From: Haladaptatus sp. ZSTT2
GTDB taxonomy: Archaea; Halobacteriota; Halobacteria; Halobacteriales; Halococcaceae
Reading direction: 5' to 3'
Length of the DNA stretch: 64,000 nucleotides
Assembly (NCBI RefSeq): GCF_037081775.1
Contig: NZ_JBAMHQ010000001.1
Coordinates: 310,001 to 374,000 of the forward strand
Shown here: piece after piece, positions 21,947-44,049 of the stretch
How the letters are laid out: each line of letters begins with the position of its first letter
How positions within the stretch are numbered: position 1 is the stretch's first letter
Notes under the pieces: model-generated
What the model was told of the DNA's origin: nothing
The model's database searches: none
What the model saw: only the letters and a program-made list of their open reading frames with translations
Translations under genes and position numbers: made by a program

Positions 21947-22124
21947 TGGGGTCGGAGGGATTTGAACCCCCGATCGACTGATATCTCCGGTACGCCTCGG
22001 TACTCCAGAGGGTCGTCAACGCACCCAATGATCAGTCAGGTGCTCTGTATATCAGTTCTGGAGTGTCGTCACCGTGCGTGTTACCTCTGGAGTCAGTCGC
22101 CATGCCGGGCTTGGCCACGACCCC
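21947..22124 (-). tRNA. tRNA-Trp (CCA) with a 104-nt intron
   Basis: On the minus strand, exon 1 is 22124-22087 and exon 2 is 21982-21947. The acceptor stem GGGGUCG pairs exactly with CGACCCC, the anticodon stem ACUGA pairs with UCAGU, the anticodon is CCA, and the T-loop reads UUCAAAU. The intron lies one base after the anticodon at the usual haloarchaeal site. It contains C-box-like (ggtgacga) and D-box-like (ctga) sequences, as expected because haloarchaeal tRNA-Trp introns act as box C/D guides for 2'-O-methylation of the tRNA. CCA is not encoded; the discriminator is A. Confidence 0.92.
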
Positions 22125-39182: not shown

Positions 39183-39469
39183 GCCGCGACTTCTTCGTCT
39201 TCTTCTGGCTGGCGCAGGCGTTCGACAACGTCGTTGATGAGCACCACGTCGCCTACAGCGCGCACCCAGCGGTACGGAATGATGACTCCCCGGTGTCCGT
39301 CGAGCCGGTTTCGGAACAGGTCGGTGTTGAGCTGACTCAGCGCGAGCCCCGTCACAACCTCCTGATCGAGGTCGAGTCGAATGTCCTCGACCTCACCCAC
39401 GAACACCCCGTTGTTGGAGTAGACTTCGCGGCCGACAAGGCTCGTAATTTCTTGCGGCATTGCGTCCAT
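39179..39469 (-). CDS. PRC-barrel domain protein
   Basis: A 96-residue protein with a single PRC-barrel domain (VGREVYSNNGVFVGEVEDIRL and RGVIIPYRWVRAVGDVVLI). PRC barrels bind RNA or other proteins, for example as ribosome-maturation or photosynthetic-complex factors. ATG at 39460 would remove three residues. Its stop interlocks with that of the preceding gene in the tetranucleotide TTAA at 39179-39182. Confidence 0.85.
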   Translation of the reverse strand: MDAMPQEITSLVGREVYSNNGVFVGEVEDIRLDLDQEVVTGLALSQLNTDLFRNRLDGHRGVIIPYRWVRAVGDVVLINDVVERLRQPEEDEEVAA

Positions 39470-39536
39470 ACATTCGAGGTCTGTCCAAGGGGCCTTAACT
39501 CTTGGCTGAGCGTCTGACGCAACGCCGCCGCGGGTG

Positions 39537-41708
39537 TCAGGGCTGTATCAGTTCGATGGGGTGTGGCGGCGACTCGGTTCTGAACGCCGCGAGCTGTTCT
39601 TGACACGACGTGCCGCTCGCCACGACGTGGTCTGCGCCCTCGAACTCGCCTACCAACTGCTCGCCAACGTCAATGCTCACCTCGTAGTACTCGGCCTTGT
39701 AGCCGAAACTCCCCGCCATCCCACAGCAGTCCGCAGACGAGGTTTGGACGTCGTAGCCGAGGTCAGCGAGGACGGCTTCCGTATAGACCGCCAACCCGTG
39801 CGAGCGTTGCTGACAGTGGCTATGATAGGAGAGGTCGGTTCCCGAACCAGCAGTGAGGGCGGACGCATCCGCACCGTTTTCGAGCAGGCCGTAGACGTAT
39901 TCGAACACCTCGTAGCTTGCCTCAGAAATGCGCTCGAAGGAGGGGGGTTCGAGGAACTTCTCGTAGTCGTCACGGAACATCGTGAGGTCGCTCGGTTCGA
40001 TGACCACGATGTCTCGCCCAGCGTCGATGTGCTCTGCCACCTGCCCGTAGACGGTTTTCGCCTGCGAACGAGCGGTTTCGACCATCCCCTGTGACAACGG
40101 CGCGCGACCGCTCTCTGCTAGGTCCGGAATCTGCACCCGACAGCCGAGCGCTTCGAGCACGCGAACGGCGGCTTTCCCGCGTGCTGGATTCACGTAGTTC
40201 GTGTAGATGTCGGGATAGAGCACCACGTCGCGGTCGTAGTCGGTCACCAGTTCGCGGGCTGCCATCCACTCGCGCAGTGTCTCGCCCGCGAACTCGGGTA
40301 GGTCGCGGCGGGCGTCGATTCCTGCGACCGATTCGAGCAGCGTTCGGGCTGGGCCGAACTTCCCCACCCAGTTCGAGACGGGGGCGAACCGACTGCCCAG
40401 TTTGAACAACGTACCCGCGTTGCCGAACACGCGCTTTTGCAGGTCGAGGCTCCCGGGTTCTTCGTCCGGCGTCAAGCCTTCGACGAGAAAGCCGAGTTCG
40501 TCCTGTGGCTTGCCGCGATTCACGCGGTCGCGCACCACCGTGTTCACCCACGGAATGTCGATTTTCACCGGGCAGGTGGGCACGCACTGCGAGCAGCCGG
40601 TACAGAGGTCGTTGAACTCTGCTGCGGTGTCGAGTCCAGAAATACCGGCTTCCCAGCCCGTACCGATACCGCCGGTGTACGTCTCCCCTCCGAAGCCGTG
40701 ACCGCCGACGGCTTGGAAGTTCGCACAAGTGTTCGCACACGCCCCACACCGAATGCAGTAGAGCGTTTCGCGGAGGTCTTCGTCCGCGCGCATCTCGCGG
40801 CGGCCGTTGTCGACGAGCACGAGGTGGAAGTCGCGCTCGCCTGTCCCGAACTCGTCTGCCTCGAAATCGATTGTGGGAGTCTCGACCGGCGGGGTGAGCA
40901 GCGAGACGTACGACGTGATATCTTGTCCCGTTCCCGTGCGAGCGATGAGTTCGACGAACGGCTGAAGGTCTTCGAGGGTCGGCACGAGTTTTTCGATGCC
41001 TGCGACTGCGATGTGGGTGTCCGGGGTCACCGCTGATTTCCGGGCGTTACCCTCGTTCGTGACGATGGCGAGCGTCCCCGACTCTGCGACGATGAAGTTC
41101 GCGCCGGTCATGCCCACGTCGGCGTCGAGAATCTTCTCGCCGACGATGTCGCGGGCGAATTTGGTGAGCGCCTGTGGGTCGTCCGGGAGCGGCTCGGCGA
41201 GGTCGAAGTGGTCGTTGAACAGCGCGGCGATTTCGCCGGTCGATTTGTGGAGTGCCGGGCCAATCAGGTGACTCGGCGTTTCGTGGGCCAACTGGATGAC
41301 GAATTCTCCGAGGTCGGTTTCCCACACCTCGTACCCGGCGGCTTCGAGGTGGGCGTTGAGTTCGAGTTCCTCGGTCGTCATCGACTTGCTCTTGACGAGC
41401 GACTCTGCGTCCTTCTCGGCCATCACGTCCTCGACGTAGCGGTTCGCCTCTTCTGCGTTCGCTGCGACGTACACCTGCCCGCCGTTGGCTTCGACGGCCT
41501 CTGTCACCTCCTCGATGAGGTCGGGAAGGTGCTCGATAGCATCTTCTTTTATGGCTCTCGCTTCCTCCCTGAGTTCCTCGTAGCGGTCGAAGTGCGAGAC
41601 GTTGTAGTCGGTGAGTTCTGCGAGGCCGCGTGTGTTCGTTCTGATGGCGTCGCCCTCTTCGTCCATGAGTTTTCGCAACGCGGCGGCCTTCTGGCGGCGG
41701 GAACTCAT
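39537..41708 (-). CDS. LutB-LutA-type fusion: LUD domain plus iron-sulfur and Cys-rich domains
   Basis: A 723-residue protein. Residues 60-300 form a LUD domain of the lactate-utilisation type. Two [4Fe-4S] ferredoxin motifs follow, C-x2-C-x2-C-x3-C at 318-328 and 369-379. The C-terminal part (about 490-723) resembles the Cys-rich CCG domain of LutA/GlpC (SHCQQRSHG, ADCCGMAGSFGYK). So domains that are separate LutA and LutB proteins in Bacillus are joined here. It is coupled to the LutC-like gene upstream by a 4-base overlap and probably oxidises lactate or a related 2-hydroxy acid. Confidence 0.85.
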   Translation of the reverse strand: MSSRRQKAAALRKLMDEEGDAIRTNTRGLAELTDYNVSHFDRYEELREEARAIKEDAIEHLPDLIEEVTEAVEANGGQVYVAANAEEANRYVEDVMAEKDAESLVKSKSMTTEELELNAHLEAAGYEVWETDLGEFVIQLAHETPSHLIGPALHKSTGEIAALFNDHFDLAEPLPDDPQALTKFARDIVGEKILDADVGMTGANFIVAESGTLAIVTNEGNARKSAVTPDTHIAVAGIEKLVPTLEDLQPFVELIARTGTGQDITSYVSLLTPPVETPTIDFEADEFGTGERDFHLVLVDNGRREMRADEDLRETLYCIRCGACANTCANFQAVGGHGFGGETYTGGIGTGWEAGISGLDTAAEFNDLCTGCSQCVPTCPVKIDIPWVNTVVRDRVNRGKPQDELGFLVEGLTPDEEPGSLDLQKRVFGNAGTLFKLGSRFAPVSNWVGKFGPARTLLESVAGIDARRDLPEFAGETLREWMAARELVTDYDRDVVLYPDIYTNYVNPARGKAAVRVLEALGCRVQIPDLAESGRAPLSQGMVETARSQAKTVYGQVAEHIDAGRDIVVIEPSDLTMFRDDYEKFLEPPSFERISEASYEVFEYVYGLLENGADASALTAGSGTDLSYHSHCQQRSHGLAVYTEAVLADLGYDVQTSSADCCGMAGSFGYKAEYYEVSIDVGEQLVGEFEGADHVVASGTSCQEQLAAFRTESPPHPIELIQP

Positions 41709-42211
41709 TGTTCCTCCACAATGAGCACGTGAATGCTCTCCGGGCCGTGGACGCCGCGAACGAGCGACCCCATGTCGGCGGTCGCACTCGGGCCGGTGGC
41801 GAGAATTTGGGTGCGCGTGCCCGCCTCGAACTCAGTACCAAGTTGGGTGAACGCGTCTGCCATCCCCGGCGTGATGTCGTCCTCCTCAACGACGATGACG
41901 TGACGGGACGGGTAGAGTGAGATGAACTCGTCTGCCTCACTCGTCGTCCGGAGGGTGACGGTTCCGTACTCGGCCACGGCGAGTCCAGCCTGTGAGACAC
42001 CAGTGTTCGCCGCAAGTATCTCTGTGGGTGTCGGAGTCACGGTGACTGAGGCATCGCCGTAGGAGAGCGACCCGCGGAGCTCGGTGCCGACGATCGGCGG
42101 GTCGAGGAGGGCGGCGAGATCGGTCGAAAACGTGTCCGGAGACGTTCGCACGACGTCGTCCGCTTTATCGTCGAGTGCGGACTCGAAGCTGCGGACGGTA
42201 TCGGTACTCAT
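41705..42211 (-). CDS. LutC-like LUD domain protein
   Basis: A 168-residue LUD-domain protein (segments ILAANTGVSQAGLAVAEYGTV, HVIVVEEDDI, GPSATADMGSLVRGVHGPES). This pattern matches LutC/YkgG, the third partner of LutAB. The start at 42211 is used because upstream residues do not fit the family. It overlaps the start of the LutAB fusion gene, so the two are translated from one message. Confidence 0.83.
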   Translation of the reverse strand: MSTDTVRSFESALDDKADDVVRTSPDTFSTDLAALLDPPIVGTELRGSLSYGDASVTVTPTPTEILAANTGVSQAGLAVAEYGTVTLRTTSEADEFISLYPSRHVIVVEEDDITPGMADAFTQLGTEFEAGTRTQILATGPSATADMGSLVRGVHGPESIHVLIVEEQ

Positions 42212-42255
42212 GGCACGAACTGCCACGGCCTGCTAAATGATTGTTCGGGAACCGG

Positions 42256-43359
42256 TTACAGCGAGTCGAGAAAGTCACCGAACGCCGCGAGTGCGGCTTC
42301 CACGTCGGCTGGCGAGCGCGAGGCAGCGATTCGGAACCCTTCCGGAACCCCAAAGAACCTACCGGGGACGATGAGAATGTCTTCATTCCACGCGGCTTCA
42401 GAGAGTGCGTCGCCATCGAGTTCCTCGTGAAACAGCAGGCCAAACGTACAGCCGGGGCGAATGGTTCCTGTGAGGTCGTCGCGGTCTTCGACGAACGCGC
42501 TGAGCTGGGTGTGATTCTCAGTGAGATGTGCTTGGGCACGGTCTCTGAGCTGGCCTGCGTTGTGAAAGGCGCGGCGGGCGAGGGCGACGCTCGGGCCGGA
42601 AATCGACGGCACGTACTGCAAGATGTGGTTCGCCCGGTTCACAAACGCCGCATCCGCGATGAGCCAGCCAATGCGGAGTTCGCCAAGGCCGAGGAACTTC
42701 GTGAGCGACCCCGTGACGACGATGTTGTCGAGTCCGGCCGCCGTGACGCCGCCAAAGGCGAGGTCTCCCACTGGCGCTTCGACGAATGCACCGTACACTT
42801 CATCGACGAGCAAGCGCGCACCCACTTTGGCACAGTCGTCTGCGAGGGCTGCGAGGTCGTTGCGGGAGGTCAAGACGCCCGTGGGGTTGTGGCGATTAGT
42901 GACCATGACGAGCGCTGTTTCGTCGGTGAGTGCACTGTTGACCCGTTCAGCATCGAGTTGCCAGTCGTTTTCTTCCACCCTGAGAAAGCGGTCGGTTTGG
43001 CTGTTGAGCGCCTCTGGTGTCACGACGAGCGGTTCGTAGCCCGGTTTTTCGACGAGGATTCGGTGGTCTGGATCCTCTTCCGCTGTATTTTCGTCTCCAA
43101 CCGTCGCCGCGACAGCGAGAAAGTTCGCATGCGTCGCACCGGCGGTGATGAGCACGTTTTTCGGAGAGACACCATAGGCGGCGGCAATCTGTGATTCGAG
43201 GGAAACCTCCTCGGAAGGGTTTTCGAGCCCAGAGAGAACCGATGGCGTCACGCGCGTATAGGAGGGCGTGTCCGTGCGAAGGTCGCTCGACCCGAGGTCG
43301 TATGTGGCTGCCTCTGGTCGCCCCGCAATCCAGTCGAGATACGAAATGACAGGGAACAT
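42256..43359 (-). CDS. PLP-dependent aminotransferase class I/II
   Basis: A 367-residue fold-type I aminotransferase. The substrate loop LITAGATHANFLAV, the NRHNPTG motif, the PLP aspartate segment LLVDEVYG and the lysine region VTGSLTKFLGLGELRIGW are visible. It resembles the haloarchaeal group of tryptophan/aspartate-like or capreomycidine-like aminotransferases; the amine donor and acceptor are not known. It stands next to the LUD pair and may use its keto acid product, but this is an inference from neighbourhood. Confidence 0.85.
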   Translation of the reverse strand: MFPVISYLDWIAGRPEAATYDLGSSDLRTDTPSYTRVTPSVLSGLENPSEEVSLESQIAAAYGVSPKNVLITAGATHANFLAVAATVGDENTAEEDPDHRILVEKPGYEPLVVTPEALNSQTDRFLRVEENDWQLDAERVNSALTDETALVMVTNRHNPTGVLTSRNDLAALADDCAKVGARLLVDEVYGAFVEAPVGDLAFGGVTAAGLDNIVVTGSLTKFLGLGELRIGWLIADAAFVNRANHILQYVPSISGPSVALARRAFHNAGQLRDRAQAHLTENHTQLSAFVEDRDDLTGTIRPGCTFGLLFHEELDGDALSEAAWNEDILIVPGRFFGVPEGFRIAASRSPADVEAALAAFGDFLDSL

Positions 43360-43463
43360 AGTTCTGTTGTATCACGATACGAGTTTAGCTTTCCGCCGTT
43401 GGCAATCAGCCCCACGCGCAGTGTGCGTGCAATTCAGTGACGGGACAAATAAATGGGGGAAAT
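43360..43463. other. Short intergenic stretch before the structured region
   Basis: This A/T-richer segment contains the minus-strand promoter of the aminotransferase gene and no reading frame. The plus-strand TATA box of the structured region starts at its right end. Confidence 0.5.
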
Positions 43464-43465
43464 AA

Positions 43466-43472
43466 TTATATA
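43466..43472 (+). promoter_or_regulatory. TATA box for a candidate small RNA
   Basis: The sequence ttatata is a near-ideal archaeal TATA box with no coding gene directly downstream; transcription would start near 43497, just before the row of inverted repeats. Confidence 0.55.
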
Positions 43473-43496
43473 GGGGAGTTCACTTGGTGAGCAGCT

Positions 43497-43722
43497 ATGC
43501 AGGCAGTGAAGTAAATAGGTAAGCCAACAAAGAATCGGTTGCCGGGTGCCTCTGACAAACCGGCAATGTAGACCGGTGGGGTGGCTTTGCCCGGGGCCAC
43601 CACACTTGGTTTCACTTTCACTGAAAATTCATCTTGCTACCAATGGGTGGCGCTGAATTTTCGAGGGATTGGGTGGGCTCAGGGGGGACACAATCCCCCT
43701 GAGGCCGAACATCACGGCTATT
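43497..43722 (+). ncRNA. Candidate structured small RNA, about 225 nt
   Basis: Following a strong TATA box the sequence folds into consecutive perfect inverted repeats: TTGCCGG/CCGGCAA (43539-43566), GGTGGC/GCCACC (43580-43601), GAAAATTCA/TGAATTTTC (43623-43662) with an inner gctacc/ggtggc pair, CTCAGGGGG/CCCCCTGAG (43678-43703) and finally gccg/cggc followed by tattttg (43704-43724), a terminator-like end. No protein frame fits. It matches none of the archaeal RNA genes I know (not RNase P, 7S or a tRNA). The right end overlaps the last bases of cutA on the other strand. The boundaries are approximate. Confidence 0.5.
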
Positions 43723-44029
43723 TTGTCGAATCGATGGCGTCGTCACGCCACTCGGCGTATACATCGAGAATCGAAGTTTCGTCAAACCGCTCGATACACG
43801 GCACGTCGTAGGGGTGAAGCTCTACAACACGGTTGACGAGCGCATCGTACTGCTCTGCAGTGGTTTTTGCGAGCAGTGCAACTTCGTCGTCCTCGTGGAC
43901 AGTGCCCTCCCAACGGTACACCGACCGACACGGCACGAGATTCACGCAGGCTGCGAGCCGGTCTTCGACCAGTGCGTGCGCGATGGAGTCGGCCGCCTCC
44001 GGCGGTGCGGTGATGTAGACGGTAGGCAT
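43718..44029 (-). CDS. cutA: Divalent cation tolerance protein CutA
   Basis: A 103-residue protein of the CutA1 trimer family: MPTVYITAPPEAADSIAHAL at the start, LAACVNLVPCRSVYRWEGTV and LLAKTTAEQYDALVNRVVELHPYDVPCIE as diagnostic blocks. CutA proteins bind divalent metals and are linked to copper tolerance. Start at ATG 44029. It sits next to the structured region and upstream of a small HEWD gene in the same direction. Confidence 0.9.
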   Translation of the reverse strand: MPTVYITAPPEAADSIAHALVEDRLAACVNLVPCRSVYRWEGTVHEDDEVALLAKTTAEQYDALVNRVVELHPYDVPCIERFDETSILDVYAEWRDDAIDSTK

Positions 44030-44049
44030 CGGTGAGAAAATCGGGTCGC

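Follow-up and report, generated by a model that had tools for sequence, protein, structure and literature searches.

Between an aminotransferase gene and a cutA-like gene of a haloarchaeal genome lies an intergenic stretch with a promoter-like sequence and a series of inverted repeats. We asked whether it encodes a separate RNA or only the leader of a neighboring gene, and which message such an RNA would act on. The window, meaning the whole 64,000-nt stretch of DNA analysed, corresponds to C1:310001-374000 of this 3.23 Mb genome.

The intergenic RNA gene and its surroundings

The analysis identified an RNA gene at 43494-43724 of the + strand that stands alone, has a BRE/TATA promoter of its own and folds strongly. 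The features of the locus are listed below; the promoter elements, the dyad and the terminator-like hairpin were assigned from the sequence alone.

42256..43359, - strand: divergent aminotransferase gene (class I/II), with PF00155 found in the relative L042_U
43445..43454, + strand: upstream AT-rich element ACAAATAAAT, TATA-like, about 17 nt 5' of the TATA box, function unknown
43455..43472, + strand: BRE-like purine-rich stretch GGGGGAAATAA and TATA box TTATATA (43466-43472)
43478..43492, no strand assigned: dyad GTTCAC-N3-GTGAGC between TATA box and start, a possible operator
43494..43724, + strand: RNA gene of about 230 nt, predicted to start some 25 nt past the TATA box, ends not mapped experimentally
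43506..43515, + strand: conserved 5' motif GUGAAGUAAA, family consensus RUGARGUAAAG (alignment A2)
43539..43566, + strand: hairpin HP1, stem UUGCCGG/CCGGCAA, a perfect repeat with arms 43539-43545/43560-43566
43546..43557, + strand: HP1 loop with the seed GUGCCUCUGACA, which perfectly complements nt 2-13 of the rosR mRNA
43576..43605, + strand: hairpin HP2, the second core element, variable stem with arms 43576-43585/43596-43605
43588..43594, + strand: HP2 loop UGCCCGG, predicted to pair with CUGGGCA (nt 31-37) of the rosR mRNA of the same genome, one G-U pair included
43623..43662, + strand: hairpin HP3 GAAAAUUCA/UGAAUUUUC, arms 43623-43631/43654-43662, inner element GCUACC-N4-GGUGGC
43675..43724, + strand: terminator-like hairpin (12-nt repeat 43675-43686/43695-43706) and U-rich tail UAUUUU (TATTTT at 43719-43724)
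43718..44035, - strand: convergent cutA-like gene, an open frame whose name comes from the preliminary description, without a family search

The preliminary description of this locus had reported a TATA box, consecutive inverted repeats and no gene frame. The TATA box is present and preceded by purines, the repeats that form HP1 and HP3 are perfect as described, the terminator-like repeat is followed by TATTTT, and no open frame is conserved. A 5-codon frame (MQAVK and a stop, 43497-43514) does begin at the predicted transcription start, as had been stated, but it is not kept outside the genus. Therefore, it is not a conserved peptide, and this candidate was rejected. The minimum free energy of the + strand (43495-43724) was -93.1 kcal/mol, compared to -75.3 +/- 4.4 kcal/mol for dinucleotide shuffles (z = -4.1; none of 200 shuffles equalled it).

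The BRE/TATA arrangement was also found upstream of homologues, and the upstream AT element has a counterpart in relatives, TATAWAAA, at similar spacing at most of the listed homologous loci. Dyads of the form GTCA..TGAC, comparable to that at 43478..43492, were seen by eye and without statistics in several other loci. The promoter order of the family is the upstream AT element, 17 nt, the BRE/TATA, often a GTCA..TGAC-like dyad, and RUGARGUAAAG near the start. An inner element like that of HP3 was recognised by eye in part of the relatives.

The genes beside the RNA were compared at 88 matches of the covariance model R1 described below. The left neighbor is mostly divergent and encodes a FilR1-type winged-helix regulator (PF25213 and PF08350; 40 clustered neighbors), a PRC-barrel protein or an aminotransferase. 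The right neighbor is mostly convergent, being a DUF123 gene, an AAA_26/DRTGG gene or, in the genus of the window, cutA. This synteny is kept across families. Since the PRC-barrel, aminotransferase and regulator genes recur jointly on the left, the locus appears to be ancestral and the RNA a unit of its own. The same orientations and the cross-family synteny argue against a leader, which the preliminary description had left as its second option; a leader of cutA or of the aminotransferase gene was rejected on gene orientation and on the differing neighbors. The RNA does adjoin genes and contains ACA- and CUGA-like strings, so that a cis-acting leader or attenuator, or an H/ACA or C/D guide RNA, could be suspected. 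However, the neighbors point away or mostly run head-on at the 88 loci, and the Rfam covariance search, with 7S, RNase P, tRNA, C/D, H/ACA and riboswitches among its families, gave no match at the gathering score or at E up to 5. We regard these readings as hardly tenable. The earlier statement that known archaeal RNAs do not match is borne out by the same search.

In the window, a PRC-barrel gene followed by LutB/LutC-like genes lies beside the aminotransferase gene (39266-42226, - strand). PRC-barrel, aminotransferase and FilR1-type regulator genes also adjoin the RNA in other families. Elsewhere in the window (21947-22124, - strand), Rfam recognised a tRNA that extends over 178 nt, probably with an intron, and that was missed by ARAGORN with bacterial settings.

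Distribution, covariation and invariant loops of the RNA family

In a BLASTN comparison of 261 bases with 146 relatives, a check that had been proposed for this locus, one genome of the same genus had a nearly full-length homologue and the other matched over 139 bases. In three other families, seven genomes matched only in a core of 26-50 bases that contains HP1. Six of these carry, after HP1, a hairpin with an unrelated stem and a loop that reads CUUUGCCCGGG, CCUUGCCCGGG or similar. Of 392 Halobacteriales genomes, 53 contain the exact pattern GTGCCTCTGACA-N2-4-CCGG, and none contains the reversed control pattern. Among named genomes, the HP1 pattern was found in Natrialba, Halopiger, Halalkalicoccus, Halegenticoccus, Haloarchaeobius, Halorubellus, Halohasta, Halonotius, Halobellus, Halogranum, Natronocalculus and Halalkalirubrum, with a few chance matches in bacteria. 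Downstream of HP1, each of the 34 distinct loci has between one and three UGCCCGR sites, most of them in a clear hairpin.

The covariance model R1, built from 30 sequences, matched 112 of the 392 genomes in 42 of 95 genera (E <= 0.01; most below 1e-8). Up to four R1 copies were present in the genus g51, probably Haloferax. The exact HP1 core pattern had no match in viral contigs, and one Haloferax-like paralogue had none in plasmids. Extra paralogues in a Haloferax-like genus (L104-L106, L108, L109, L111, L112, L115, L117) lie away from the ancestral locus. Several have altered seeds, for example GCCUCUGUGUUAACA, and other targets may be possible for them.

In the first alignment, RNAalifold gave no covariation, MAFFT having misaligned HP2. 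Covariation was therefore measured in alignment A3, with 86 distinct sequences fitted to the model, a fit that in itself favors the structure. Paired cells made up 91.9% of the total, compared to 72.6% for shuffled sequences and at most 45% for slid structures. The covariation score was 0.50 (0.146 +/- 0.012 shuffled, at most 0.137 slid), and 185 cells held double changes (61.8 +/- 5.5 shuffled, at most 70 slid). HP1 was paired in 97% of cells, with double changes at 3 of its 5 pairs. HP2 was paired in 87.5%, with double changes at all 6 modelled pairs and up to 47 double-change sequences at a single pair. In a test that is independent of this alignment, a stem of at least 6 bp enclosed HP2 in 74% of real flanks and in 14% of flanks swapped between loci. 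Compensatory changes of the kind sought for this locus thus exceed the shuffled and slid controls.

The loops stay fixed while the stems vary: the HP1 loop reads GUGCCUCUGACA and the HP2 loop (U)UGCCCGR. The constancy of both loops on changing stems indicates that the loops are what matters. The comparison of genomes thus establishes the gene, the fold and the invariant loops, while transcription of the locus is inferred. A conserved promoter, a fold that carries compensatory changes in other genera and conserved synteny support the earlier proposal of a stable non-coding RNA of about 225 nt, and the stretch is almost certainly a real RNA gene. The term 'undescribed' means here not described as a family or with rosR as target; transcripts of the locus may figure in published lists of haloarchaeal sRNAs.

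The start of rosR as the probable target of the HP1 loop

The HP1 loop is perfectly complementary (12 of 12) to nt 2-13 of the rosR mRNA, within its first nucleotides AUGUCAGAGGCAC. This match is new, as the preliminary description had given no function. The seed is unpaired in the minimum free energy fold, and the duplex with rosR reaches -24.3 kcal/mol, a value as good as which was found in none of 2000 shuffles. The complement of the HP1 loop, TGTCAGAGGCAC, occurs exactly three times in the 3.2 Mb genome: in the RNA of the window, at L164 and at L165.

L165 is the start of rosR, A followed by UGUCAGAGGCAC. Pfam places the encoded protein of 119 aa in the PadR family, and its sequence identifies it as RosR (phmmer 1.7e-44 to 6ez1, 6.6e-44 to hsRosR 6qfd). 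RosR is an oxidative-stress regulator in Halobacterium salinarum (PMC3443676, PMC4287449). The rosR AUG is preceded by a TTAAAT box, about 27 nt away in this genome and at a similar distance in many others, so the rosR mRNA is probably leaderless. At L164 (C1:2000754, outside the window), the seed lies on the opposite strand between two UGCCCGG hairpins, GUCGAG-CCAUGCCCGGA-CUCGAU and CCAGCCACA-CCUGCCCGG-UUGUGGCUGG. This is a second RNA that shares both motifs with the RNA of the window on other stems (model R2, E = 5e-5).

The target site itself is under constraint. The rosR 13-mer ATGTCAGAGGCAC was present in 325 of 392 genomes, compared to about 18 for a reversed control (manual count), and the sampled first matches were mostly rosR starts. 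Judged by codon use elsewhere in rosR, TCA-GAG-GCA would be expected in 0.7% of S-E-A triplets; these rare codons are kept at the start. The equally conserved peptide stretch LTAF is encoded in 44 different ways across 112 genes, with no version above 15%. Since these 112 rosR genes were picked by their start sequence, the frequency of the 13-mer was taken only from the 392-genome count.

Seed and target are strongly co-conserved. Where the rosR start differs, the evidence for compensation is partial. In the RNA-bearing genomes G284 and G311, rosR has GGCGC and still pairs through G-U. In the genus g4, the HP1 variant GCGCCUCUGACA (L149, G007) and the rosR variant GGCGC (G005) form a matching double change, found in different genomes. 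The genera g44 and g7, with the rosR start AGAGTCAC, had no consistently compensating seed. A search for the compensating seed GTGACTCTGACA in genera with a differing rosR start returned only rosR itself or scattered single matches.

Two further observations concern rosR. In Halalkalicoccus-type genomes (L234-L248, L265-L273), several rosR paralogues all have identical first 13 nucleotides. In the family f17, the rosR leader repeats TGTCAGAGTCT directly 5' of ATGTCAGAGGCAC.

The rosR promoters of many lineages (e.g., L165, L028, L038, L232) have an inverted repeat, TGACAT-N10-ATGTCA, that overlaps the start codon and is possibly an autoregulatory operator. The 12-mer might accordingly be a DNA site, an operator for RosR or another factor located both at the rosR start and inside the RNA gene; a reverse complement is an identical DNA site, and the repeat over the start codon would fit. 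However, in the RNA the 12-mer is a hairpin loop on a covarying stem about 50 nt inside the transcript, the rosR repeat does not mirror its GAGGCAC part, and the published RosR motif of Hbt. salinarum, TCGnCGACGAGnTCGnCGAC (PMC4287449), is unrelated. A shared DNA site is therefore very unlikely.

The complementarity and the constraint on the target are results of the comparison; pairing in the cell is inferred, and no binding data exist. With good confidence, we take the rosR mRNA to be the main target of the RNA. The fuller reading, in which a separate gene encodes a trans-acting antisense small RNA that pairs with the start of the rosR mRNA, is likely as well, in the absence of expression, binding or mutant data. 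Counting against it are the altered seeds of several Haloferax-like paralogues, the lack of a consistently compensating seed in g44 and g7, the conservation of the rosR 13-mer in R1-negative genomes and, for the second contact described below, the rosR genes without GGGCA, the unexceptional HP2 duplex and the genome G264.

The 12-mer was also examined in genomes without an R1 match (n = 49). It occurs beyond rosR in most of them, and the rosR 13-mer is conserved there too. Many of these seed sites resemble intergenic hairpins on unrelated stems (L343, L344, L367, L383, L387-L389, L361, L341, L370), and L392, L397 and L398 have a UGCCCGA hairpin 5' of the seed. Hairpins with a UGCCC loop lie near 5 of 63 R1-negative seeds, compared to 1.2% of random places (p = 9e-4). 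In the swapped-flank test, stems of at least 10 bp enclosed the seed in 22% versus 12%. This effect is weak, and not every R1-negative seed site is claimed as an RNA. An exchange of the scaffold around the seed is likely, not proved. At L383 (G233:C2:206100-207600), three tandem seed-bearing hairpin-like sites were observed within about 400 nt.

A possible second contact, the predicted effect and related small RNAs

Of 55 rosR genes from RNA-bearing genomes, 22 carry GGGCA, the complement of the HP2-loop core, in the interval from the start site to the LTAFQ codons; of 55 from R1-negative genomes, none does (Fisher 3e-8). Counted per genus, this is 12 of 27 compared to 0 of 24 (p = 1e-4). No correction for kinship beyond this genus count was applied in this or the other comparisons. 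Where Pro-Gly is encoded at this position in both groups, the RNA-bearing genomes mostly use CCG-GGC, which gives CCGGGCA, whereas the seven R1-negative ones use other codons (manual count). G264, an R1-negative genome examined later, does carry CCGGGCA. In the genome of the window, CUGGGCA of rosR forms 7 bp with the HP2 loop (one G-U, -13.4 kcal/mol), which is not exceptional, as 11% of shuffled targets were as good.

The remaining 33 of the 55 rosR genes from RNA-bearing genomes have no GGGCA, so that HP2 is without a rosR complement in more than half of them. Together with repeated hairpins, a fixed loop, a free stem and a copy number of 1-3, this is what would be expected if the invariant loops, chiefly the repeated UGCCCGG, bound an RNA-binding protein in the manner of CsrB/RsmZ and the rosR match were secondary. 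The RNA resembles CsrB/RsmZ in its repeated hairpins with invariant loops and variable stems, but its loop is UGCCCGG, not GGA, in 1-3 copies only, and we know of no CsrA-type partner in archaea. Titration of a protein would leave unexplained why HP1 perfectly complements rosR over 12 nt, why this match is unique in the genome and why GGGCA is distributed 22/55 versus 0/55, and we consider it unlikely.

Under the preferred reading of an antisense RNA, the HP1 loop GUGCCUCUGACA would pair with nt 2-13 of the rosR mRNA and cover the start codon of an apparently leaderless message. Some lineages may have a second kissing contact, between the HP2 loop UGCCCGG and a CCGGGCA-like sequence that lies about 10-20 nt deeper in the coding region. 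The association of this second site with the RNA was observed; the contact is inferred. OxyS-fhlA of Escherichia coli offers a precedent, in which hairpin loops of a free-standing stress-related sRNA kiss the target mRNA at the translation start and further downstream. The likeness lies in this geometry of two kissing-loop contacts. There is no sequence relation, the target here is a leaderless archaeal mRNA without a Shine-Dalgarno sequence, and there is no evidence for Hfq; unlike OxyS, the RNA has a seed complementary over 12 nt and freely exchanged stems.

Pairing at the rosR AUG would mask the start codon. The 5' AUG is all that a leaderless mRNA presents to the ribosome, so initiation should be blocked there and RosR synthesis lowered, under conditions that would be set by the RNA's own promoter. 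Repression and the regulation of the RNA itself are inferences, and we lean only slightly toward translational repression as the effect; its sign is the weakest step, with no expression data. The RNA could also activate or stabilise the rosR mRNA by protecting its 5' end, without a translation block. The pairing evidence would be identical, and archaeal sRNA154 is described as stabilising its target (cited in PMC13286277). However, pairing over the start codon of a probably leaderless mRNA should hinder initiation, which makes such an activating role improbable.

More broadly, the data may reflect a modular, class-wide antisense system. An invariant 12-nt seed against the rosR start would be retained while stems, hairpin order and genomic places are freely exchanged, giving several unrelated scaffolds and up to several copies per genome. 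The UGCCCGG loop would co-evolve with rosR codons by kissing and exert post-transcriptional control through a leaderless start codon. This broader proposal is tentative, and we stop just short of favoring it.

Two haloarchaeal sRNAs can be compared. SHOxi of Haloferax volcanii, a 254-nt oxidative-stress sRNA encoded on pHV3, destabilises the malic enzyme mRNA by pairing (PMC12482152). It resembles the RNA described here as a haloarchaeal sRNA that is tied to oxidative stress and acts through mRNA pairing, but its target is different and no link to rosR is reported. sRNA132 of Haloferax is monocistronic and intergenic, with its own promoter and two hairpins; it belongs to the phosphate response, is confined to the genus and has predicted pairing in ORFs and 3' UTRs (PMC6560208). 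It is likewise an intergenic haloarchaeal sRNA with its own promoter and hairpins, but differs in its confinement to one genus, its pairing away from the start codon and its phosphate response. Both sRNAs differ from the RNA of the window in genomic context and taxonomic range. A literature search for the loop sequences and for rosR together with sRNA or antisense RNA found neither this RNA nor any sRNA directed at rosR; supplementary sRNA lists were outside its scope.

Leaderless messages are the majority in haloarchaea. The haloarchaeal sRNAs studied either occur in one genus only or pair within ORFs or 3' UTRs, and to our knowledge very few archaeal sRNAs have a known target. Found in 42 genera, the RNA gives a concrete single-gene, base-by-base prediction of pairing with the rosR start codon, which can be tested in a model haloarchaeon. 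If true, it would show how an antisense RNA can control the translation of leaderless messages, would supply a missing level of the RosR network, and may account for species differences in RosR function and expression.
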